Part shown: positions 16,861 through 26,771 of the stretch, one piece after another
Layout of the letters: each line of letters starts with the position of its first letter
How positions within the stretch are numbered: the stretch's first letter is position 1
Assembly (NCBI RefSeq): GCF_000253155.1
Contig: NC_015291.1
Location: 591,001-655,000 of the forward strand
Direction of reading: 5' to 3'
DNA from: Streptococcus oralis Uo5
GTDB taxonomy: Bacteria > Bacillota > Bacilli > Lactobacillales > Streptococcaceae
DNA: 64,000 bases
Notes under the pieces: generated by a model
Told to the model about the DNA's origin: nothing
Databases searched by the model: none
The model's input: the letters and a program-made list of their open reading frames with translations, nothing else
Position numbers and translations under genes: made by a program

Positions 16861-18204
16861 ATGACAAAACGTGTAACAATTATCGAAGTAAAAGACTACG
16901 TTGGTCAAGAAGTGACCATTGGGGCCTGGGTTGCCAACAAATCAGGAAAAGGAAAAATTGCCTTCTTGCAATTGCGTGATGGAACTGCCTTCTTCCAAGG
17001 TGTAGCCTTTAAACCAAACTTTATTGAAAAATTTGGTGAAGAGGTAGGTCTTGAAAAATTTGACACCATCAAACGCTTGAGCCAAGAAACTTCTGTTTAT
17101 GTGACAGGAATTGTCAAAGAAGACGAACGTTCTAAGTTTGGCTATGAGTTGGATATTACAGACATCGAAGTCATCGGTGAATCTCAAGACTACCCAATCA
17201 CACCAAAAGAACACGGAACAGACTTCTTGATGGACAACCGTCACTTATGGCTCCGCTCTCGTAAGCAAGTAGCGGTTATGCAAATCCGTAACGCGATTAT
17301 CTATGCGACTTATGAGTTTTTCGACAAGAACGGCTTCATGAAATTTGATAGCCCAATTCTTTCAGGAAATGCGGCAGAGGATTCAACTGAACTCTTTGAA
17401 ACAGACTACTTTGGAACGCCAGCCTACTTGAGCCAATCAGGTCAGCTTTACCTAGAAGCAGGAGCTATGGCTCTTGGTCGTGTCTTTGACTTTGGTCCAG
17501 TATTCCGTGCTGAAAAATCAAAAACGCGCCGTCACTTGACTGAGTTCTGGATGATGGACGCTGAATACTCATACTTGACACACGATGAGTCCCTTGACTT
17601 GCAAGAAGCTTATGTAAAAGCCCTTCTTCAGGGTGTTCTTGATCGTGCGCCTCAAGCCTTGGAAACCTTGGAACGTGACACAGAGCTCTTGAAACGCTAC
17701 ATTGCTGAGCCATTTAAACGCATCACTTACGATCAAGCCATTGACCTTTTGCAAGAGCATGAAAATGATGAAGATGCTGATTACGAGCATCTTGAGCATG
17801 GCGATGACTTTGGTTCACCACACGAAACATGGATTTCAAACCACTTTGGTGTGCCAACATTTGTTATCAACTATCCAGCAGCTATCAAGGCCTTCTACAT
17901 GAAACCAGTTCCTGGAAATCCAGAGCGCGTGCTTTGTGCAGACTTGCTTGCACCAGAAGGATATGGAGAAATCATCGGTGGTTCTATGCGTGAGGAAGAC
18001 TACGATGCCCTTGTCGCTAAAATGGAAGAACTTGGAATGGATCGTACAGAATATGAATTCTACCTTGACCTTCGTAAATACGGTACAGTACCACACGGTG
18101 GATTTGGTATCGGTATCGAGCGTATGGTAACTTTCGCAGCAGGTACAAAACATATCCGTGAAGCTATTCCATTCCCACGTATGTTGCACCGTATCAAACC
18201 ATAA
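16861..18204 (+). CDS. asnS: Asparaginyl-tRNA synthetase
   Basis: A 447-residue class IIb synthetase: N-terminal OB-fold anticodon-binding domain (about 1-110), then the catalytic core with the [15 protein letters not shown] motif 2 region and the C-terminal [10 protein letters not shown] motif 3. This is the usual full length. It charges tRNA-Asn with asparagine. It has its own extended -10 (TGGTAAAAT near 16802-16810), a spaced leader with AAGGAAG, and a strong terminator. No T-box leader is visible in the ~50-nt predicted leader. Confidence 0.95.
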
Positions 18205-18212
18205 ACTAGGAA

Positions 18213-18240
18213 AAAGAAGATATTTTCATCTTCTTTTTTT
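18213..18240 (+). terminator. Terminator after asnS
   Basis: AAAGAAGAT / ATCTTCTTT stem with an ATTTTC loop and a T run. Confidence 0.8.
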
Positions 18241-18273
18241 CACTTTTATCTTGCTATCTATCAGTTTTTCTAG

Positions 18274-18346
18274 TATAATAGTTTATTGTGAGCAAACCTC
18301 ACTTACCCCTTGCAAAGTCTAGGGGTCATTAGACCAAAAGGAGGAA
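18274..18346 (+). promoter_or_regulatory. rpsF operon promoter and structured leader with possible pseudoknot
   Basis: TATAAT (18274-18279) is followed by hairpin GTGAG/CTCAC (18288-18302). Then comes a potential H-type pseudoknot: CCCC (18306-18309) with GGGG (18322-18325), and GTCTA (18317-18321) with TAGAC (18330-18334). The AAGGAGG ribosome site follows at 18339. A leader of this kind would fit autoregulation by S6 or S6:S18, known for rpsF operons in other bacteria; here it is a fold read by eye. Confidence 0.5.
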
Positions 18347-18353
18347 CATATCA

Positions 18354-18644
18354 ATGGCTAAATACGAAATTCTTTATATCATTCGTCCAAACATTGAAGA
18401 AGAAGCGAAAAACGCTTTGGTAGCACGTTTTGACTCTATCTTGACTGACAACGGTGCAACTGTTGTTGAATCAAAATCATGGGAAAAACGTCGTCTTGCA
18501 TACGAAATCCAAGATTTCCGTGAAGGACTTTACCACATCGTTAACGTTGAAGCAAACGATGACGCAGCTCTTAAAGAGTTTGACCGTCTTTCAAAAATCA
18601 ACGCTGACATTCTTCGTCACATGATCGTCAAACTTGACGCGTAA
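18354..18644 (+). CDS. rpsF: Ribosomal protein bS6
   Basis: A 96-residue bS6 with N-terminal YEILYIIRP, the [12 protein letters not shown] strand and C-terminal ILRHMIVK, which is normal bacterial length. It binds S18 on the 30S platform. AAGGAGGAA lies before the ATG. First gene of the conserved rpsF-ssb-rpsR operon, with 11 nt to ssb, and preceded by a structured leader that may mediate feedback control. Confidence 0.97.
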
Positions 18645-18655
18645 GAAGGTAAATT

Positions 18656-19126
18656 ATGATTAACAATGTTGTACTTGTAGGGCGTATGACACGTGACGCT
18701 GAGTTGCGTTATACCCCATCAAATGTAGCAGTTGCGACTTTTACTCTTGCAGTAAACCGTACATTTAAGAGTCAAAATGGCGAACGTGAGGCTGATTTTA
18801 TCAATGTCGTTATGTGGCGTCAACAGGCTGAAAATCTTGCTAACTGGGCTAAAAAAGGCTCTCTTATCGGGATAACAGGCCGTATCCAGACTCGTAGTTA
18901 CGATAATCAGCAAGGACAACGTGTCTACGTAACAGAAGTCGTGGCTGAGAATTTCCAAATGTTGGAAAGCCGTGGAGTGCGTGAAGGACATACAGGTGGA
19001 GCTTATTCTGCACCAACTGCTGGTCAATCAGCACCTGCAAACCCAGTACCAGACTTTTCACGTTCTGAAAATCCATTTGGAGCAACCAATCCATTGGACA
19101 TTTCAGATGATGATTTACCATTCTAA
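18656..19126 (+). CDS. ssb: Single-stranded DNA-binding protein
   Basis: A 156-residue SSB: an OB-fold of ~105 residues starting [20 protein letters not shown], a glycine/proline-rich flexible region, and the acidic tail ending DDDLPF that recruits replication and repair partners. It forms a tetramer that coats single-stranded DNA. Position between rpsF and rpsR is the usual Gram-positive arrangement of the housekeeping SSB. The ribosome site AAGG is short but correctly spaced. Confidence 0.96.
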
Positions 19127-19157
19127 TGGACAATTAATACTATAAAGGAGAAAAAAC

Positions 19158-19397
19158 ATGGCTCAACAACGTCGTGGCGGATTCAAACGCCGTAAAAAAG
19201 TTGATTACATCGCAGCAAACAAAATTGAATATGTTGATTACAAAGATACTGAGCTTCTTAGCCGTTTCGTTTCAGAACGTGGGAAAATCCTTCCTCGTCG
19301 TGTAACAGGAACTTCAGCTAAAAACCAACGTAAAGTAACAACAGCTATCAAACGCGCTCGCGTAATGGCTTTGATGCCTTTCGTAAACGAAGATTAA
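19158..19397 (+). CDS. rpsR: Ribosomal protein bS18
   Basis: A 79-residue bS18 with a basic N-terminus ([10 protein letters not shown]), the [19 protein letters not shown] core and [15 protein letters not shown] at the C-terminus, of normal length. It pairs with bS6 on the 30S subunit. AAAGGAG precedes the ATG. The gene ends the operon and is followed by an exceptional run of terminator-like repeats. Confidence 0.97.
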
Positions 19398-19424
19398 AAA
19401 AAAGACCCATAAGGGTCTTTTTTT
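19398..19424 (+). terminator. rpsR operon terminator
   Basis: AAAGACCC-ATAA-GGGTCTTT, a perfect 8-bp stem flanked by A's and seven T's. Confidence 0.92.
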
Positions 19425-19673
19425 CACGAGCTTTGAAACGAGGGAGCGAGTTGAGTCTAGTGGCCCTTTTTTTCATGAGCTCGGAAATAAGAAAGCGAGT
19501 CAAGACCCCAACAGGTCTTTTTTTCACGAGCATGGAAATGAGAGAGCGAGTTGGGTCCAGTGGCCCTCTTTTTTATGAGCTCGGAAATAAGAAAGCGAAT
19601 TAAGACTCCAACGGGTCTTTTTTCACGAGCATGGAAATGAGAGAGCGAGTTGGGTCCAGTGGCCCTTTTTTTC
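19425..19673 (+). repeat. Tandem 99-100-bp repeat made of alternating terminator-like half units
   Basis: Five ~50-bp half units follow one another, starting near 19425, 19474, 19525, 19575 and 19624. Each opens with CAYGAGC..GGAAA..AGA.AGCGA and ends in a short stem plus T-run. Type A stems read GGGTC-CAGT-GGCCC and type B stems read AAGACC-x-GGTCTT. Units at 19525 and 19624 share more than 40 identical bases. Together with the rpsR terminator and the hairpin at 19714 this fills the 407-nt gap between rpsR and the next gene. Confidence 0.85.
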
Positions 19674-19713
19674 AGACTTTTCCAGGACTCTGTTAGAATG
19701 GAGTCCCTTTTGA

Positions 19714-19747
19714 CCTAGTAAGATTCTTTTGTCTTACTAGGTTTTTT
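19714..19747 (+). terminator. Strong terminator at the end of the repeat array
   Basis: CCTAGTAAGA / TCTTACTAGG perfect 10-bp stem with an 8-nt loop and TTTTTT. A weaker GGACTC/GAGTCC hairpin lies just upstream (19685-19706). Confidence 0.9.
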
Positions 19748-19804
19748 CTTTTAATCTCTATTATCGTGCTATAATAGTGGAAGAAGGCTTTTAAGGAGTA
19801 CCTT

Positions 19805-20314
19805 ATGGAAACAACATGTCTGATTAGAAAAATGCAAACATCTGATGTTAAAGAACTATCCCAAGGTTTTACCAATCAAGGTTGGCCGGGTAGAGAAGAA
19901 ATTTTGGCTAGGTATTTTCTTGAACAAGAATGTGGGGAGAGAGAAGTCTTAGTTGCAGAGGTTGGGGGTGCTTTAGCGGGTTATGTTACAATTTTGCCTT
20001 GCGCTAAGCAGGGGCCTTTTGCAGAAATCTATCCAGAACTATCAGATTTCAATGTCTTTGAGCCCTTTCAAAATCAAGGTATTGGAAACCTCTTGATGGA
20101 AGAGGCAGAAAATCGAGTTAAGCTTTTTTCAGACAAAGTGACGTTGGGTGTAGGTTTGCACTCAGGCTATGGACCTGCCCAGAGATTGTACATCAAACGA
20201 GGCTATATTCCAGATGGTTCGGGCGTCTGGTATCAAAATCACAGACCGGCTATGGATGCTACTTGTGAAGATATCGGTGACCTTGTTTTATATCTGTCAA
20301 AAGATTTGATTTAA
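19805..20314 (+). CDS. GNAT family N-acetyltransferase
   Basis: A 169-residue single-domain acetyltransferase. The acetyl-CoA-binding motif A is recognisable as NQGIGNLLMEEAE, preceded by LSDFNVFEPFQ, and the fold covers the whole protein. The substrate is unknown. Its own extended -10 (TGC-TATAAT near 19767-19775) and AAGGAG lie upstream, and a terminator follows, so it is transcribed alone. It precedes the accessory exopolysaccharide operon, but promoter and terminator placement give no sign of linkage. Confidence 0.85.
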   Translation: METTCLIRKMQTSDVKELSQGFTNQGWPGREEILARYFLEQECGEREVLVAEVGGALAGYVTILPCAKQGPFAEIYPELSDFNVFEPFQNQGIGNLLMEEAENRVKLFSDKVTLGVGLHSGYGPAQRLYIKRGYIPDGSGVWYQNHRPAMDATCEDIGDLVLYLSKDLI

Positions 20315-20361
20315 GATAGATCTTATAAGGTTTAACTTTAAAATGGCAAGAAGTCGTAACC

Positions 20362-20390
20362 TCCTTTTTCATTCGAAAAAGGAATTTTTT
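20362..20390 (+). terminator. Terminator after the GNAT gene
   Basis: TCCTTTTTC-ATTC-GAAAAAGGA stem followed by a T run. Confidence 0.8.
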
Positions 20391-20748
20391 GTTTGAAATT
20401 GTTTGATTTATTCCTCAAAGTGGTAAAATATAATTGTTTGAAATATCAATACAAATATAAATATCAAAAAAACATATAAGGTTTAGTTTTTTTAAATACG
20501 GATTCTTTTGAAAAGTCTTAAAATTTCCTAAAATAAGGCTTTTCAAAGGTTGTAAATAAAATTATTACAAAAAGGTTACAAATTGTTAAAATTAAATTAA
20601 ATGCAATAATATAATTTGGAAAAAATTTGACATATAAATTAATTGACGGTAAAATAATTAAGATAATCAAATTAATTGATTTGCGCAATAATTCGATATA
20701 AAGATTAATCTGATGTGTCAAATTTTATTATAGTAGAAGGATAGCATA
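20391..20748 (+). promoter_or_regulatory. AT-rich control region of the exopolysaccharide operon
   Basis: This gene-free stretch is very AT-rich. It holds a near-consensus promoter, TTGACA (20627-20632), 17-bp spacer, TAAAAT (20650-20655). A perfect 11-bp inverted repeat, AAAATTTGACA (20622-20632) and TGTCAAATTTT (20716-20726), brackets ~83 bp, and the left arm contains the -35. AAATTAATTGA occurs twice in direct orientation, at 20636 and 20669, 33 bp apart. A second possible promoter, TGG-TAAAAT, is at 20421-20429. The spacing suggests an operator or a long-range RNA hairpin before the ribosome site at about 20736. No RNA gene was recognised. Confidence 0.6.
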
Positions 20749-21903
20749 ATGAAGAAACTGAAAGTGATGGTTGTTTTTGGAACACGACCAGAAGCTATTA
20801 AAATGGCCCCTTTAGTGTTGGAATTGCAAAAACATAGTGACAGCATTGAGACAATCACAGTTGTGACAGCCCAGCATCGTCAAATGCTGGACCAAGTTCT
20901 TGAAACGTTTCGCATCGAGCCACATTATGACCTGGATATTATGGGGAAAAATCAATCTCTTTTAGATATTACTGGAAAAATTTTAGAAAAGTTTGATCCA
21001 GTTGTTAAGCAAGAACTTCCAGATATGATTCTTGTTCATGGAGATACAACAACAACTTTTGCAGCCAGTTTAGTTGCTTTCTATAATCAGGTACGTATCG
21101 GCCACGTTGAAGCTGGTCTAAGGACCTTTGATAAGTATTCTCCTTTCCCAGAAGAGATGAATCGTCAGATGACTGACTGCCTTGCGGATCTCTATTTTGC
21201 TCCAACTAGTGAGAGTAAAGAAAATCTCCTCAAGGAAAATCATCCTGAGTCTGCTATTGTCATTACGGGAAATACAGCCATTGATGCCTTGAAACTAACC
21301 GTTCAATCGGATTACTATCATGAAGTTCTAGATCAATTGGATCCAGATAAGAAACTTGTATTGGTGACCATGCACCGTCGTGAGAATCAAGGTCAACCAA
21401 TGAGAAATGTCTTTGCAGCTTTACGTGAGATGGTCGATCTTCATCAGGAAATTGAAGTTGTTTATCCTGTTCACCTTAGCCCCGCCGTGCAAGAAGCAGC
21501 AAAAGATATCTTAGCCGGTCACGATCGTATTCACTTGATTGAGCCTTTAGATGTACTTGATTTTCATAATTTGGCTTCAAGAAGCTATTTTATCATGACT
21601 GACTCTGGCGGAGTTCAGGAAGAGGCGCCTTCTCTCGGCAAACCTGTCCTTGTCCTTCGTGACACGACGGAACGTCCAGAAGGAGTAAGAGCAGGTACTT
21701 TGAAGCTAGTTGGTACGGATCCAGTATGTGTGAAAGAAGCGATGGCAGCACTTTTAACAGATGAAACTCTTTATAGACAAATGTCTCATGCACCAAATCC
21801 TTATGGAGATGGCAGAGCTTCTGAACGAATCGTACAATCCATTCAACAGTACTTTGGGGCAGCGACTTCTGTATCTGAATTCAAAGGGGGGGGAATAAGA
21901 TAA
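20749..21903 (+). CDS. wecB: UDP-GlcNAc 2-epimerase (non-hydrolysing)
   Basis: A 384-residue enzyme with FGTRPEAIKMAPLV at the N-terminus, HGDTTTTFAAS, the catalytic EAGLRT region and TDSGGVQEEAPSLGKPVLV near the C-terminus, all family signatures. It converts UDP-GlcNAc to UDP-ManNAc in the cytoplasm. First gene of a five-gene operon with a processive GT2 and a GH8 hydrolase, so it most likely supplies UDP-ManNAc as the synthase donor. It is followed after 1 nt by the next gene. A G8 run at 21888-21895 near its 3' end is a possible slippage site. The role in this operon is inference from gene content. Confidence 0.92.
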   Translation: MKKLKVMVVFGTRPEAIKMAPLVLELQKHSDSIETITVVTAQHRQMLDQVLETFRIEPHYDLDIMGKNQSLLDITGKILEKFDPVVKQELPDMILVHGDTTTTFAASLVAFYNQVRIGHVEAGLRTFDKYSPFPEEMNRQMTDCLADLYFAPTSESKENLLKENHPESAIVITGNTAIDALKLTVQSDYYHEVLDQLDPDKKLVLVTMHRRENQGQPMRNVFAALREMVDLHQEIEVVYPVHLSPAVQEAAKDILAGHDRIHLIEPLDVLDFHNLASRSYFIMTDSGGVQEEAPSLGKPVLVLRDTTERPEGVRAGTLKLVGTDPVCVKEAMAALLTDETLYRQMSHAPNPYGDGRASERIVQSIQQYFGAATSVSEFKGGGIR

Positions 21904-21904
21904 A

Positions 21905-22684
21905 ATGAAAAATTGGAGTCAATTTAAAAACTGGCTTATGGCTTTGCTTGCTTGTGAGGTCATTCTTTTGGTGCTTTGTTTTTTGTACGCTCGAGCAATC
22001 ATTTTAGAACAAATCTTGTTTTTAGCTTTAGCCTTGTTTGCAGTGTTGGTATTATCTGACCTTTTGCTTACTTGGACCCTCATCTTAGCATTTGGTTTTG
22101 GACTTATCGTTTTGGTTGCGGGTGTGGTTTATATCCCAATCATTCAACTGGTCTTCTTATTGATCAGTTTTCCACTTTTGATTGGGATACTACTTAAAGT
22201 TCGTTATTATTTCTTCAAGGTGACCTCAAAGGTCCAAGAACAGGAAGACGAAGCTCGAGCAGATTACCAAGCTATGGTAACTGAACAAAGTGATGTGACG
22301 GTACAATCTCTATTGATTCATTGGGCACATGAAGATTTGTTCTTCCAGATTAAACCGAAAGAACATAACCAGATGCTCAGTCGTATTCAAGAGGTAATTG
22401 CTCAGGAATTGAGTTACAATGATAAGCTCTATTACGTTTCGGATGGTAATTTTCTTGTTCTATCGAGTAGTAACCAACATTCTTTGAAGGAACTTTATTT
22501 GAATGGTTTGCAGGAGAAACTAAGCAGTTTAGTTTTTCATGGAGAAGAAGGTAATCAAGAAATTCAGTTCCAAACAGGCTATTTGGTGATTAACTCTGAT
22601 AATAAAGATAAATACCAAGACTACGCAGATGTAGCCAGTCATCTCAAACGTCAACTAGAGACAGATGTAATTGTAGAATATTAG
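21905..22684 (+). CDS. Membrane protein with degenerate GGDEF domain (YdaK/PssE-like)
   Basis: A 259-residue protein: about four membrane helices in residues 10-98, a charged coiled stretch (105-125), and a cytoplasmic domain from ~130 to 259. The pattern LSYNDKLYYVSDGNFLVLSS aligns with the core of GGDEF domains (RxxD-x4-GGDEF). GGDEF itself is SDGNF at 179-183, so cyclase activity is excluded. The inhibitory-site Arg is Ser170 with Asp173 retained, so classical c-di-GMP binding is doubtful. B. subtilis YdaK and the equivalent Listeria pss protein have the same architecture and control a GT2 synthase. The GGDEF assignment is by pattern and needs structural confirmation. Confidence 0.7.
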   Translation: MKNWSQFKNWLMALLACEVILLVLCFLYARAIILEQILFLALALFAVLVLSDLLLTWTLILAFGFGLIVLVAGVVYIPIIQLVFLLISFPLLIGILLKVRYYFFKVTSKVQEQEDEARADYQAMVTEQSDVTVQSLLIHWAHEDLFFQIKPKEHNQMLSRIQEVIAQELSYNDKLYYVSDGNFLVLSSSNQHSLKELYLNGLQEKLSSLVFHGEEGNQEIQFQTGYLVINSDNKDKYQDYADVASHLKRQLETDVIVEY

Positions 22685-22693
22685 GAGGGAAAC

Positions 22694-22834
22694 ATGACTT
22701 TAACCGAACTATTTTTTGGTATTGCTTTGGGACTCAGTCTCGCCTTTGGCATTTGTTTTATCATACTATTTATTGCATACAATATTCTTTATCATCGAGT
22801 GAACAAAAATTTTAAGGCGGTGAATCATGATTAG
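22694..22834 (+). CDS. 46-residue single-TM membrane peptide
   Basis: ATG at 22694 is preceded by a perfect AGGAGG 6 nt upstream and opens 46 codons. Residues 8-33 form one long hydrophobic helix (LFFGIALGLSLAFGICFI onward), followed by a basic tail HRVNKNFK. The stop overlaps the start of the GT2 gene by 8 nt, so it is translationally coupled to it. It has no relative I can name. Small accessory membrane subunits are common next to processive synthases (IcaD and PgaD are larger examples), so it may stabilise the synthase or link it to the GGDEF-like protein. That role is inference. Confidence 0.75.
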   Translation: MTLTELFFGIALGLSLAFGICFIILFIAYNILYHRVNKNFKAVNHD

Positions 22835-24137
22835 TCAAATGTTAATGATTTTTACCTTGCTTACAATTTGGATTTCTCTAGCTTGGGGCTTGGTAATTCT
22901 CTTTTCGGCAGTACACTTTTGGTTTAAACACAGTGATTTTCGTGTAGATACTTCGCCGCTACCTTATTACCCGAAGGTTACCATTGTTGTTCCTGCTCAT
23001 AATGAGGATGTGGTTATTGCCCAAACAGCAAAAGCTATCTTGGATATGAACTATCCTCACGACCGTGTGGAATTGCTTCTATTCGCAGATAACTGTTCAG
23101 ATAACACCTATGCAGAATGTTTGTCAGTACAAGCCATGCCTGAATATGCAGAAAGAAATCTGACTATTATCGACCGTACTGGTACGGGAGGAAAAGCAGG
23201 TGTTCTAAACGATGCTTTGGAGATGGCAACAGGCGAATATATCTGTGTCTATGATGCGGATGCCATGCCTGAAAAGAACGCCCTTTATTTCCTTGTCAAA
23301 GAAGTGATGAAGGACCCAGAACGTCACGTGGCATCTTTCGGTCGCAACAAGACTCGAAATGCTAATCAAAATTTCTTGACTCGTTGTATCAACCAAGAAA
23401 TCGTTGTTACTCAGCGCGTGCACCACGTTGGAATGTGGCATCTCTTTAAAATTGGGCGTATTCCAGGAACCAACTTTATCATTCAAACCGACTTTGTAAA
23501 GAGTATCGGTGGTTGGAAAAATGGTGCCTTAACCGAGGATACCGATATTTCCTTCAAAATCATGCAGAGTGGTAAATTGATTGCCCTTGCCTATAATTCA
23601 GAGGCTTTCCAACAAGAACCTGAGACCTTAAAGAGTTACTATATGCAACGGAAACGCTGGGCAAAAGGAAATTACGAAGTTGTTCTCTCGAACTTTAAGC
23701 ATTTATTTGGCAGAGCAAACTGGCGTGTTAAATTAGAAGTTTTTAACTATTCGTGTGTTTTCTTTTGGTTTAACTTTGCCATTGTTCTATCGGATTTGAT
23801 TTTCCTAGCGAATGTGCTAGCAATCTGCCTTAATCTTTTCTTCCCAGATGTCAGGGTTCCATTTGCTTTTGATGCGGACAATATCTACATTGCACAGCTC
23901 ATGCTTTTTAACTGGATACTCATGATTGGTCTCTATTTGATGCAAATTATGACAGCATTGGCAAGTCAATTTGGACAAGCGACGACAAAACAAATCTGGT
24001 TAGCCTTGGCAGCATATTTCTCTTACGCACAGATGTTTATCGTTGTATCCGTTGATTCCATTTCTTCAATAGTGCTGGATAAAGTACTCCGACGAAAAGA
24101 AACCAAGTGGGTTAAAACTAAGCGATTTGCAGGATAG
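22827..24137 (+). CDS. Processive family 2 glycosyltransferase (polysaccharide synthase)
   Basis: A 436-residue inner-membrane synthase. It has one N-terminal helix (about 8-32), a cytoplasmic GT-A domain with IVVPAHNE, DAD (143-145), TED (236-238) and the processive-enzyme hallmark QRKRW (274-278), then about four C-terminal helices. There is no PilZ domain, unlike BcsA, so regulation must come through a partner, probably the GGDEF-like protein two genes upstream. It should polymerise a UDP-sugar and export the chain. With a UDP-ManNAc-forming epimerase in the same operon, poly-ManNAc, as in the Listeria Pss polymer, is the favoured product; poly-GlcNAc remains possible. Confidence 0.88.
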   Translation: MISQMLMIFTLLTIWISLAWGLVILFSAVHFWFKHSDFRVDTSPLPYYPKVTIVVPAHNEDVVIAQTAKAILDMNYPHDRVELLLFADNCSDNTYAECLSVQAMPEYAERNLTIIDRTGTGGKAGVLNDALEMATGEYICVYDADAMPEKNALYFLVKEVMKDPERHVASFGRNKTRNANQNFLTRCINQEIVVTQRVHHVGMWHLFKIGRIPGTNFIIQTDFVKSIGGWKNGALTEDTDISFKIMQSGKLIALAYNSEAFQQEPETLKSYYMQRKRWAKGNYEVVLSNFKHLFGRANWRVKLEVFNYSCVFFWFNFAIVLSDLIFLANVLAICLNLFFPDVRVPFAFDADNIYIAQLMLFNWILMIGLYLMQIMTALASQFGQATTKQIWLALAAYFSYAQMFIVVSVDSISSIVLDKVLRRKETKWVKTKRFAG

Positions 24138-24145
24138 GAGGATTT

Positions 24146-25249
24146 ATGAAAACGAATAAATTAAAATATGTCTGGTTTGTGCTCATCCTTTCTATCTTTT
24201 GTTTAGCCTTGTTTTTAGCAAGAGGAAGGACTAAAATCGAGATGCGTAATCGAATTTACAGCCAATGGAGCCAACAGTTCCTTGTTACAAAAGGCGATCA
24301 GTCTTATGTTCGTACGACGAATGATTCGGAGGGAACAACAGTTCTATCTGAAGCCCAAAGTTATGGCATGCTCATAACGGTTTTAGCAGCCCAAAAAGGG
24401 CAAGCGACACAAGCAGATTTTGAGAATCTTTATCGCTATTACCAAAATCATCGTATCGAGGGAACGCAGTTGATGTCTTGGAAGCAAGTGATCACAAATA
24501 GTAGTGAAACGGTTGAGAAGCAAAACGCAACTGATGGAGATCTCTACATCGCTTATTCTTTGATTGAAGCTGCCAAGCAGTGGCCGGATAAGGCGCAGGA
24601 ATACCAAGAGCAAGCTAAAAAAATCTTAGAAGATATTCTTCGATACAATTACAATGAAGAGACAGGTGTTCTGACAGTAGGGAACTGGGCCAACAAGGAT
24701 TCCGATTATTATTACTTGATGCGGACGTCTGATATTCTTCCTCGCTATTTCCAATCTTTCTATGACCTGACTGGAAACAAACAGTGGTTAGACGTTAAGG
24801 ATAAGATGCTTGGGCAACTGGAGCAAATTAGTTCTCATTCTGATACGGGTCTCTTGCCAGACTTTATCTGGGCTGAGAAGTCAGGGGCGCGTCTTGTTGA
24901 TGCCAACACTATCGAATCTCAGTATGATGGAGCGTATTCTTATAACGCTTGCCGTTTGCCTTATCACTTGTCTCAGAGTCAGGATGAAAGAAGCCAAAAA
25001 CTCGTTCAAAAGATGATGGATTTCTTTATGAAAGAGCAACGCATTTATGCGGGATATGACTTGAACGGAACTGCCCTCAATCAATACCAGGCAGGTAGTT
25101 TCTTGGCACCAATTACCTATGCATCTGACAAGGGAGAAGGTTATCTGAAACTTCTTCAGCAAAATAAATACATTTTCACACAAGATTTACCTTTGGACAA
25201 CTACTATGATGCAACGATGATTACCATGATTGCTCTAGAGATGTTCTAA
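24146..25249 (+). CDS. Glycoside hydrolase family 8, membrane-anchored
   Basis: A 367-residue protein with an N-terminal hydrophobic anchor (residues 8-25), no lipobox, and an (alpha/alpha)6 GH8 domain outside the cell. The catalytic motif reads VLSEAQSYGM with the acid Glu69, and TDGD at 129-132 supplies further active-site acids. GH8 enzymes accompany synthase-dependent polysaccharides: BcsZ with cellulose, YdaJ in Bacillus and PssZ in Listeria, where it cuts the ManNAc polymer. It is last in the operon, 8 nt after the synthase, with GGAGG before ATG. It probably trims or releases the polymer made by its neighbour. Confidence 0.88.
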   Translation: MKTNKLKYVWFVLILSIFCLALFLARGRTKIEMRNRIYSQWSQQFLVTKGDQSYVRTTNDSEGTTVLSEAQSYGMLITVLAAQKGQATQADFENLYRYYQNHRIEGTQLMSWKQVITNSSETVEKQNATDGDLYIAYSLIEAAKQWPDKAQEYQEQAKKILEDILRYNYNEETGVLTVGNWANKDSDYYYLMRTSDILPRYFQSFYDLTGNKQWLDVKDKMLGQLEQISSHSDTGLLPDFIWAEKSGARLVDANTIESQYDGAYSYNACRLPYHLSQSQDERSQKLVQKMMDFFMKEQRIYAGYDLNGTALNQYQAGSFLAPITYASDKGEGYLKLLQQNKYIFTQDLPLDNYYDATMITMIALEMF

Positions 25250-25258
25250 GATGAAAAG

Positions 25259-25290
25259 AGAGGGCTAGTTCAACTGGCCCTCTTTTTGAT
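25259..25290 (+). terminator. Terminator of the exopolysaccharide operon
   Basis: AGAGGGC...GGCCCTCT arms with additional inner pairs, followed by TTTTT. Confidence 0.85.
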
Positions 25291-25370
25291 AGGTTTTCAT
25301 CTTTTTTCAAGAAAGGAAATTCCTAAGGTTTATGGTATAATGGAAAGAGTGATGGAAAAGAGGTAGAGAG

Positions 25371-26771
25371 ATGGATGCGAAATTAAAATACAAGGCAAAG
25401 AAGATTAAAATCGTCTTTTTTGATATCGATGATACCTTGCGTACGTCAAAGACAGGTTTTATTCCAGCTACAATTCCCACTGTCTTTAAACAGTTGCGTG
25501 AAAAAGGAATTTTGACAGGAATTGCCTCTGGTCGTGGTATTTTCGGTGTTGTTCCAGAGATTCGTGAGCTTAAGCCGGACTTTTTTGTAACTCTGAATGG
25601 GGCCTATATAGAAGATAAAAAAGGTCAGGTCATTTATCAATATCAGATTGACAAGTCAGATGTTGAGGAGTATATCTCTTGGACTAAGCGAGAGGGAATT
25701 GAATATGGCTTGGTTGGTAGTCATGACGCCAAACTCTCTACGCGAACAGAACTGATCAGTGAGGCTATTGACCCGATTTATCCAAACTTGGATGTGGATC
25801 CTGACTTCCATGAAAAAGTAGAGATTTATCAGATGTGGACCTTTGAAGATAAAGGAGATGCCTTGCGCTTGCCAAAGTCTTTATCGGATAAACTTCGCAT
25901 GGTGCGTTGGCATGAACATTCATCTGATATCGTGCCTATTTCAGGTTCAAAAGCCACAGGTGTAGCCAAGGTGGTGGAGCATTTAGGCTTGAAACCAGAG
26001 AATGTCATGGTCTTTGGGGATGGTCTCAATGACTTGGAACTCTTTGATTATGCTGGAATCAGTATTGCCATGGGAGTTTCCCATGAAAAAATCAAAGAAA
26101 AAGCAGATTATATTACAAAAACAGTAGAAGAAGATGGCATTTTTGGTGCCTTAGAAGGATTTGGTATGGTAGAAAAAGAATTGCATTTCCCACAAGTAGA
26201 AATTGAAACAGTAGAAGGCCCTCTTGCGACCATTAAGACAAATCACGGAGACTTGCGTATCAAGCTCTTCCCTGAACATGCCCCTAAAACAGTGGCTAAC
26301 TTTGTTGCTCTGTCAAAAGACGGTTACTATGATGGTGTCATTTTCCACCGAATTATCAAGGACTTTATGATCCAAGGTGGAGACCCAACTGGTACTGGTA
26401 TGGGGGGAGAATCAATCTACGGCGACTCTTTTGAAGATGAATTTTCTGAAGAACTCTATAATGTTCGTGGCGCTCTTTCTATGGCCAATGCGGGTCCAAA
26501 TACCAATGGAAGTCAGTTCTTTATCGTACAAAACCAACACTTACCGTACTCTAAGAAAGAGATTGCGCGTGGTGGTTGGCCTGAACCAATCGCTGAGATC
26601 TATGCCGAGCAAGGTGGAACTCCTCACCTTGATCGTCGCCATACTGTTTTTGGACAATTGGTAGATGCAGAATCTTTTGCGGTCTTGGATGCCATTGCAG
26701 CTGTTGAGACTGGTGCAATGGACAAGCCAGTTGAAGATGTAGTAATTGAAACGATTGAAATTGAGGACTAG
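25371..26771 (+). CDS. HAD (Cof-type) phosphatase fused to cyclophilin peptidyl-prolyl isomerase
   Basis: A 466-residue two-domain protein. Residues 1-265 are a Cof/IIB HAD phosphatase with FFDIDDT (D18, D20) and GDGLNDLELF. Residues ~280-466 are a cyclophilin with FHRIIKDFMIQGGDPTGTG, ANAGPNTNGSQFFI and the final VIETIEI. There is no signal peptide, so both act in the cytoplasm. The fusion is characteristic of streptococci; what links phosphatase and prolyl isomerase is unknown. GAGGTAGAGAG precedes the ATG, the stop is 1 nt before the S1-domain gene, and the two are cotranscribed. Confidence 0.9.
   Translation: MDAKLKYKAKKIKIVFFDIDDTLRTSKTGFIPATIPTVFKQLREKGILTGIASGRGIFGVVPEIRELKPDFFVTLNGAYIEDKKGQVIYQYQIDKSDVEEYISWTKREGIEYGLVGSHDAKLSTRTELISEAIDPIYPNLDVDPDFHEKVEIYQMWTFEDKGDALRLPKSLSDKLRMVRWHEHSSDIVPISGSKATGVAKVVEHLGLKPENVMVFGDGLNDLELFDYAGISIAMGVSHEKIKEKADYITKTVEEDGIFGALEGFGMVEKELHFPQVEIETVEGPLATIKTNHGDLRIKLFPEHAPKTVANFVALSKDGYYDGVIFHRIIKDFMIQGGDPTGTGMGGESIYGDSFEDEFSEELYNVRGALSMANAGPNTNGSQFFIVQNQHLPYSKKEIARGGWPEPIAEIYAEQGGTPHLDRRHTVFGQLVDAESFAVLDAIAAVETGAMDKPVEDVVIETIEIED

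Follow-up and report, generated by a model that had tools for sequence, protein, structure and literature searches.

The polymer of the Listeria monocytogenes pss operon is reported to consist of N-acetylmannosamine (ManNAc) and galactose in a 2:1 ratio, and the hydrolase PssZ is assigned to family GH126 by CAZy, although primary studies describe it as a member of glycoside hydrolase family 8 (GH8) (PMC7479077). In Bacillus subtilis, the ydaJKLMN operon encodes a putative hydrolase (YdaJ), a membrane receptor with a degenerate GGDEF domain (YdaK, signature SDERI), and a glycosyltransferase (PMC5422440, PMC13274460), with R202 and D205 of the YdaK I-site being required for exopolysaccharide (EPS) formation, which the R202A substitution abolishes (PMC5422440). 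The gts operon (GtsA-GtsB-PdeB) of the lactic acid bacterium Lactobacillus acidophilus combines a BcsA-like family 2 glycosyltransferase (GT2) with a degenerate receptor of the cyclic di-GMP (c-di-GMP) type, in this case an EAL protein (PMC6123363). In streptococci, the pel system (PelDEADAFG) represents an EPS system of the c-di-GMP-controlled kind that does without c-di-GMP, its PelD having lost the GGDEF domain entirely (PMC7112168). Here, we describe an operon related to these systems at positions 20749-25249 (forward strand) of a 64,000-nucleotide stretch of the Streptococcus oralis Uo5 genome (a single contig of 1.96 Mb, NC_015291.1, positions 591,001 to 655,000; hereafter the window). 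Its five intact, tightly packed open reading frames encode a UDP-N-acetylglucosamine (UDP-GlcNAc) 2-epimerase (epi), a membrane protein with a degenerate GGDEF-fold domain (GGL), a small membrane peptide (p46), a GT2, and a GH8 enzyme (Table 1); by this locus, the nearest named relatives are S. oralis strains.

The best explanation overall, to which we give a probability of roughly 0.64, is a compact synthase-dependent EPS operon working as follows. The epimerase would convert UDP-GlcNAc to UDP-ManNAc, which GT2 would polymerize on the cytoplasmic side of the membrane, with the chain being extruded via the membrane helices of GT2 itself; p46, GGL, and GT2 would form a membrane complex, and the anchored GH8 would trim or release the chain outside the cell. 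GGL would derive from a c-di-GMP receptor of the PssE/YdaK type, its present role, whether in assembly or in gating by another factor, being exerted without c-di-GMP. Judged from its sequence, the operon is a real, conserved, and compact one of the pss/yda-like type, the polymer itself being predicted. The five-gene EPS operon proposed in the first-pass annotation was borne out, with all five frames intact and families assigned, apart from GGL and p46, for which family profile scans of the window proteins gave no match above cut-off. The ratio of nonsynonymous to synonymous substitution rates (dN/dS) was at most 0.25 for every gene and pair computed, indicating purifying selection.

Table 1. 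Features of the operon and its flanks (window coordinates).
Feature	Position	Strand	Basis or remark
Candidate promoter, TTGACA-17-TAAAAT (11/12)	20627..20655	+	Consensus scan; matches modestly above shuffles
epi, non-hydrolysing UDP-GlcNAc 2-epimerase (WecB/MnaA type)	20749..21903	+	TIGR00236; solved-structure match 3beo/8ahe
GGL, four N-terminal helices and degenerate GGDEF-fold domain	21905..22684	+	Model, hhalign
p46, 46-residue membrane peptide	22694..22834	+	Conserved between GGL and GT2
GT2, processive-type family 2 glycosyltransferase, 436 residues	22827..24137	+	DAD, TED, QRKRW
GH8, glycoside hydrolase family 8, predicted membrane-anchored	24146..25249	+	PF01270
Intrinsic terminator, 15-pair stem and T run	25255..25287	+	Hairpin after GH8
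GNAT acetyltransferase, left flank, outside operon	19805..20314	+	Present too at 8/9 empty sites
HAD-cyclophilin fusion, right flank	25371..26771	+	Bounds the site

The operon shares with Listeria pss its GT2 family (the GT2 of locus L105, regarded as Listeria-type on its gene order, is 35% identical), a PssE-type membrane GGDEF-fold subunit, and a hydrolase of a structurally related family, GH8 in the window and GH126 in Listeria; the description of PssZ as GH8 in the first-pass annotation is corrected here to the CAZy family. ManNAc, a constituent of the Listeria polymer (PMC7479077), is the predicted sugar of this operon. Unlike Listeria, the host genome lacks BcsB (PssD); the five genes include no PssA/PssB-like gene, the canonical I-site of the receptor has been lost, the hydrolase gene lies inside the operon, p46 and a dedicated epimerase are added, and the GT2 falls outside the PssC clade (support 100/100). 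As in ydaJKLMN, a hydrolase, a degenerate-GGDEF receptor, and a glycosyltransferase are encoded together; however, YdaL and YdaN have no counterpart, and GGL lacks the arginine that YdaK needs. If BcsB and the I-site are taken as defining features, the operon belongs to neither pss nor yda. It differs from streptococcal pel in that GGL keeps a conserved GGDEF fold, and from the gts operon, which as described has no epimerase or GH8 (PMC6123363), also in its type of receptor.

Processive polymerization by GT2 is very likely. The protein scores above cut-off for PF13641, PF00535, and PF13632; it carries membrane helices along with the motifs D, DxD, ED, and QxxRW, residues D88, D143, D145, E237, D238, Q274, R277, and W278 being invariant, and its predicted structure, a moderate model, has an HAS/BcsA-type fold (VIA-align). 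The alignments of GGL (A1), GT2 (A2), and GH8 (A4) comprise, besides the window protein, 29 of 47, 24 of 59, and 20 of 51 matches, respectively, with near-duplicates, fragments, and two PssE-type matches being left out of A1. No PilZ match was found on the GT2, and a cellulose operon was rejected on this ground and on the lack of BcsB in the genome.

Of 197 streptococcal genomes, 42 carry GGL, always with an adjoining TIGR00236 epimerase; a full-length GT2 match is present in 41 of these 42 carriers, including G169, whose GT2 has an internal stop, and in the 42nd, G187, the sequence runs into N. Exact peptide patterns, which give named carriers rather than a census, yielded 26 loci, with S. 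oralis, S. sanguinis, S. parasanguinis, S. australis, S. vestibularis, S. sinensis, S. ferus, S. ratti, S. orisasini, S. hyointestinalis, and two Liquorilactobacillus species among the carriers. Of the streptococcal loci with a name, 24 in number, 20 contain the whole set of genes (an assembly gap interrupts one of these, L112, and another, L118, begins within the epimerase), and two of the other four are cut by a contig end or N. Across the Lactobacillales, GT2 was matched at E <= 1e-60 in 71 of 295 sampled genomes, which divide into a compact type at 56-100% identity and a distant set at 33-37%. Seven stretches of the distant set were mapped (L103-L109), and in L105, the one checked gene by gene, the GT2 has DUF2334, BcsB, and GGDEF proteins around it, an arrangement like that of Listeria pss. 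In a tree built from 31 GT2 sequences, 24 compact rows parted from 7 other rows with 100/100 support. In 11 of 12 non-streptococcal compact loci (not L101), p46 lies between GGL and GT2, and GH8 follows GT2 in 11, that is, in all whose contig continues; in L099, GGL is in two overlapping pieces. Thus, the idea of a streptococcal peculiarity did not hold, and a streptococcus-only invention was rejected, since the core (GGL-p46-GT2-GH8) is present in other Lactobacillales as part of a compact clade. The claim of a Listeria pss relative without BcsB, in turn, was supported: a whole-genome search for PF03170 drew a blank in all 61 compact carriers (42 from Streptococcus and 19 from other genera) and gave a match in three of five other genomes searched alongside (G281, G249, and G389, not G253 and G078). 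A lactobacillar GGL used as a protein-search query returned 12 proteins and a single species name, Lactobacillus taiwanensis.

The polymerized sugar is probably ManNAc, a proposal now better supported than before. The epimerase matches TIGR00236 with 515.8 bits (cut-off 210.15) and the solved structures 3beo/8ahe with 533 bits. It is the only TIGR00236 match of the host genome at E <= 1e-60, a single-copy state seen in 33 of 42 streptococcal carriers; the operon has, as suggested earlier, its own predicted donor-supply enzyme. All 42 streptococcal GGL carriers have wecB, versus 29 of 155 non-carriers (Fisher test, 4.6e-24), and across the Lactobacillales all 71 GT2 carriers have it, versus 133 of 224 non-carriers (5e-14), both tests ignoring shared ancestry. 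The usual routes of UDP-ManNAc use include WecG/TagA and a TIGR03026 UDP-sugar dehydrogenase. The host genome has zero matches to PF03808 (WecG/TagA) and none to TIGR03026 above the cut-off of 189.8 (two matches, of 27 and 23 bits); therefore, these two routes are missing. Moreover, the epimerase is joined to the synthase family in several gene orders: epi-GGL-p46-GT2 in G278 (whose contig ends inside GT2), GGL-p46-GT2-GH8-epi in G241, and, in G253 (L107:6252-11652, family f6), a same-strand series of DUF2334 protein, GT2, epimerase, and a protein resembling GH8, where the 18-kb stretch L107 gave no GGL match and the genome no BcsB. A ManNAc-containing capsule is also made by S. parasanguinis FW213 (PMC10986556), and such a capsule may lie behind second wecB copies in genomes of this kind.

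GGL retains a GGDEF fold without the canonical c-di-GMP site and in a genome without a detectable cyclase, a point that the first-pass annotation missed. In its model, helices occupy residues 2-107, which are taken as membrane helices, and the GGDEF fold extends over about 109-258, with SDGNF at the GGDEF position and the I-site RxxD replaced by SYND (170-173). Alignment with six PssE-type proteins by hhalign gave a probability of 95.8 (E 6.8e-9), and a GGL profile search of solved-structure sequences retrieved designed-knot proteins and other matches that look like chance, without any GGDEF protein among them. The C-terminal motif ETDxIVEY is conserved, and the canonical I-site Arg occurs in 0 of 30 aligned rows. 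No GGDEF cyclase (PF00990) was detected in the host genome, by a Pfam scan that is blind to GGL itself. Taken together, GGL is likely to be independent of c-di-GMP.

As for the remaining parts, p46 was matched in 44 of 54 loci scanned and in 3 additional loci. GH8 matches PF01270 with 106.7 bits and has one N-terminal hydrophobic segment, its predicted membrane anchor; the general acid, E69, is invariant across the 21 rows aligned. Asn stands where GH8a enzymes usually have their base, and D261 is a candidate base from the alignment. The base of the chitosanase ChoK, its E309, which aligns with window E257, was dropped for this role, Glu being found there in 6 of 20 compact rows versus D261 in 20 of 20.

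Several observations weigh against the explanation of a compact operon polymerizing ManNAc independently of c-di-GMP. On the moderate structural model, the single protein that GT2 matches best is the mannosyltransferase PcManGT and not a polymer synthase. With respect to the sugar, the wecB association is confounded by phylogeny, the epimerase being part of the operon in Streptococcus, and 10 of 12 mapped non-streptococcal operons have no adjoining epimerase (2 of 12 have one in the operon). A GlcNAc polymer is also possible because WecB equilibrates UDP-GlcNAc with UDP-ManNAc. Such a polymer, of the poly-N-acetylglucosamine (PNAG) or the chitin/cellulose kind, would leave the epimerase only to tune the UDP-GlcNAc pool or to serve another polymer. 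It could draw on PgaC/IcaA (TIGR03937) being the NCBIfam model closest to GT2 and on the solved relatives of GH8, which are GH8-type enzymes resembling chitosanases and glucanases (5xd0, 1v5c). The staphylococcal ica and Escherichia coli pga systems likewise pair a processive GT2 with a small membrane partner. However, the PgaC/IcaA score of GT2 (130.8 bits) is far under the cut-off of 422.3, and no IcaB/PgaB deacetylase was found among the five genes or two flanking genes scanned; on these two grounds, an ica/pga operon was rejected, from which this one differs also in having an epimerase, GH8, and a GGDEF-fold subunit. Considering also the presence of wecB in every carrier, its several linkages to the synthase, and the absence from the host genome of both other UDP-ManNAc-using families tested, a GlcNAc-based polymer is unlikely.

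With respect to the ligand, 7 of the 8 GGL rows from outside Streptococcus have an Arg immediately preceding the canonical I-site position, and in these rows a shifted c-di-GMP site is possible from the alignment. Other divergent GGDEF proteins could have escaped the PF00990 scan because Pfam does not detect GGL, and cyclase-type GGDEF domains (PF00990 above 100 bits) occur in 2 of 42 streptococcal and 3 of 19 non-streptococcal compact carriers. Weak PF00990 matches (23.5-28.4 bits), present in seven further non-streptococcal carriers, lie in frames 650-680 codons long and probably represent GdpP-type proteins. GGL might accordingly still sense a cyclic dinucleotide via a changed site, be it c-di-GMP from neighbors or from an undetected enzyme, or c-di-AMP, and the retention of the GGDEF fold, of the loop residue D173, and of purifying selection would fit. 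Against this stand the lack of a cyclase detected in the host genome and the absence, at that place in every GGL row, of a counterpart to the EPS-essential Arg of YdaK (PMC5422440), and retained sensing seems rather improbable, if somewhat less so than the GlcNAc polymer.

Other GGDEF-type genes were noted in passing. The cyclase-type genes G181:C118:1540-1983 and G187:C1:1034731-1035174, from two streptococcal carriers of the operon, adjoin a 747-residue frame weakly matching GT2. In Streptococcus G078, in which GGL was not found, a stretch (L110:4646-12695) encodes a PAS-GGDEF protein, two EAL proteins, a PilZ-bearing cellulose-synthase-like glycosyltransferase, and a second GT2; this c-di-GMP island runs counter to the statement that streptococci lack such systems. 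Streptococcus sp. DD12 has a second, shorter GGL-like gene (249 residues; L120:10028-10777), 3' of the operon and without the ETDxIVEY tail.

The operon is present or absent at a defined site between rpsR and the HAD-cyclophilin gene, as the first-pass annotation had supposed. The HAD-cyclophilin flank was supplied for 30 of 36 matching genomes. Twelve flanks are mitis-type, 3 of them occupied by the operon (host included) and 9 empty, with rpsR near the HAD-cyclophilin gene and, in 8 of 9, GNAT between them; in the other 18, both rpsR and the operon are missing within 1.5 kb, and these are not counted in the 9 versus 3. An S. sinensis GT2 that is 98% identical lies on a 10.6-kb contig without any window flank gene, which fits transfer. 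In Streptococcus sp. Marseille-Q5986 (L083/L132), a decayed copy occupies the same site, with epimerase and GGL not found and GT2 and GH8 in pieces; G172 (L084) holds an operon remnant at another location, and GT2 is split in G169 (L093), as is GH8 in UBA6071 (L123). The decayed copies show that the system is dispensable, again a point against the explanation favored here, and, together with the split genes and the empty sites, could suggest a recently acquired operon heading for decay and without function in this strain. With all five frames intact in the host, the five genes complete in most named streptococcal loci, and dN/dS low throughout, this is very improbable.

Comparison of the host with G060 gave a DNA identity of 64-78% over 21851-22750 (GGL) and of 83-99% in the kilobase on either side. 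The synonymous divergence (dS) was 1.34 for GGL versus 0.24 for epi, 0.38 for GT2, 0.31 for GH8, 0.29 for HAD-cyclophilin, 0.55 for p46, and 0.70 for GNAT; this confinement of high dS to GGL points to a probable recombinational exchange of alleles and not just to amino-acid change. In the comparison with S. oralis DD24, low identity is found in the membrane half of GGL (21851-22300; 65-75%) and also in the promoter region (69%), and against S. oralis DD15, GGL is unexceptional (dS 0.27). Set against loci L094 (the GGL dS of 1.34) and L111, the window thus has GGL as a divergent allele inside a more uniform operon. Tentatively, in Streptococcus and much of the Lactobacillales, a c-di-GMP receptor that keeps its fold, membrane helices, and selective constraint, but has lost the canonical site and in most carriers has no cyclase found alongside it, may have become an obligate synthase subunit, ligand-free or differently liganded, with its alleles being swapped and the synthase making a ManNAc homopolymer that the literature searched does not describe.

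Several features of the DNA itself were also observed. Between rpsR and GNAT (19402-19674), terminator-like hairpins with T runs are arranged in tandem (period about 100, 2.7 copies; half-period 49, 5.2 copies). An eight-G run at the 3' end of epi (21886-21893) is the sole run of at least seven G in the window; it is not present in the 26 named loci (L111-L136), and in the S. oralis DD15 record an assembly gap ends at the matching place. An apparent C-terminal extension of the DD15 epimerase was dropped, the extra codons being an assembly gap of N. A search of 18000-26000 against Rfam gave a single match (E 0.92), far under its gathering score.

In the literature searched, which comprised open-licence PMC full texts only and so makes for a weak negative, no description of the streptococcal operon was found, and the locus terms were not found in a Lactobacillus reuteri biofilm paper (PMC3873254). 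The operon itself, to which the search was limited, contains no Wzy genes. Mouth streptococci, S. oralis, S. sanguinis, and S. parasanguinis among them, are predicted from this finding to bear on their surface a polymer other than the capsule. The GGDEF domain, dropped in streptococcal Pel (PMC7112168), is retained in this operon, which would offer a natural separation of two roles that are ordinarily intertwined, that of the GGDEF-fold subunit as a part of the synthase and that of c-di-GMP acting on the synthase.

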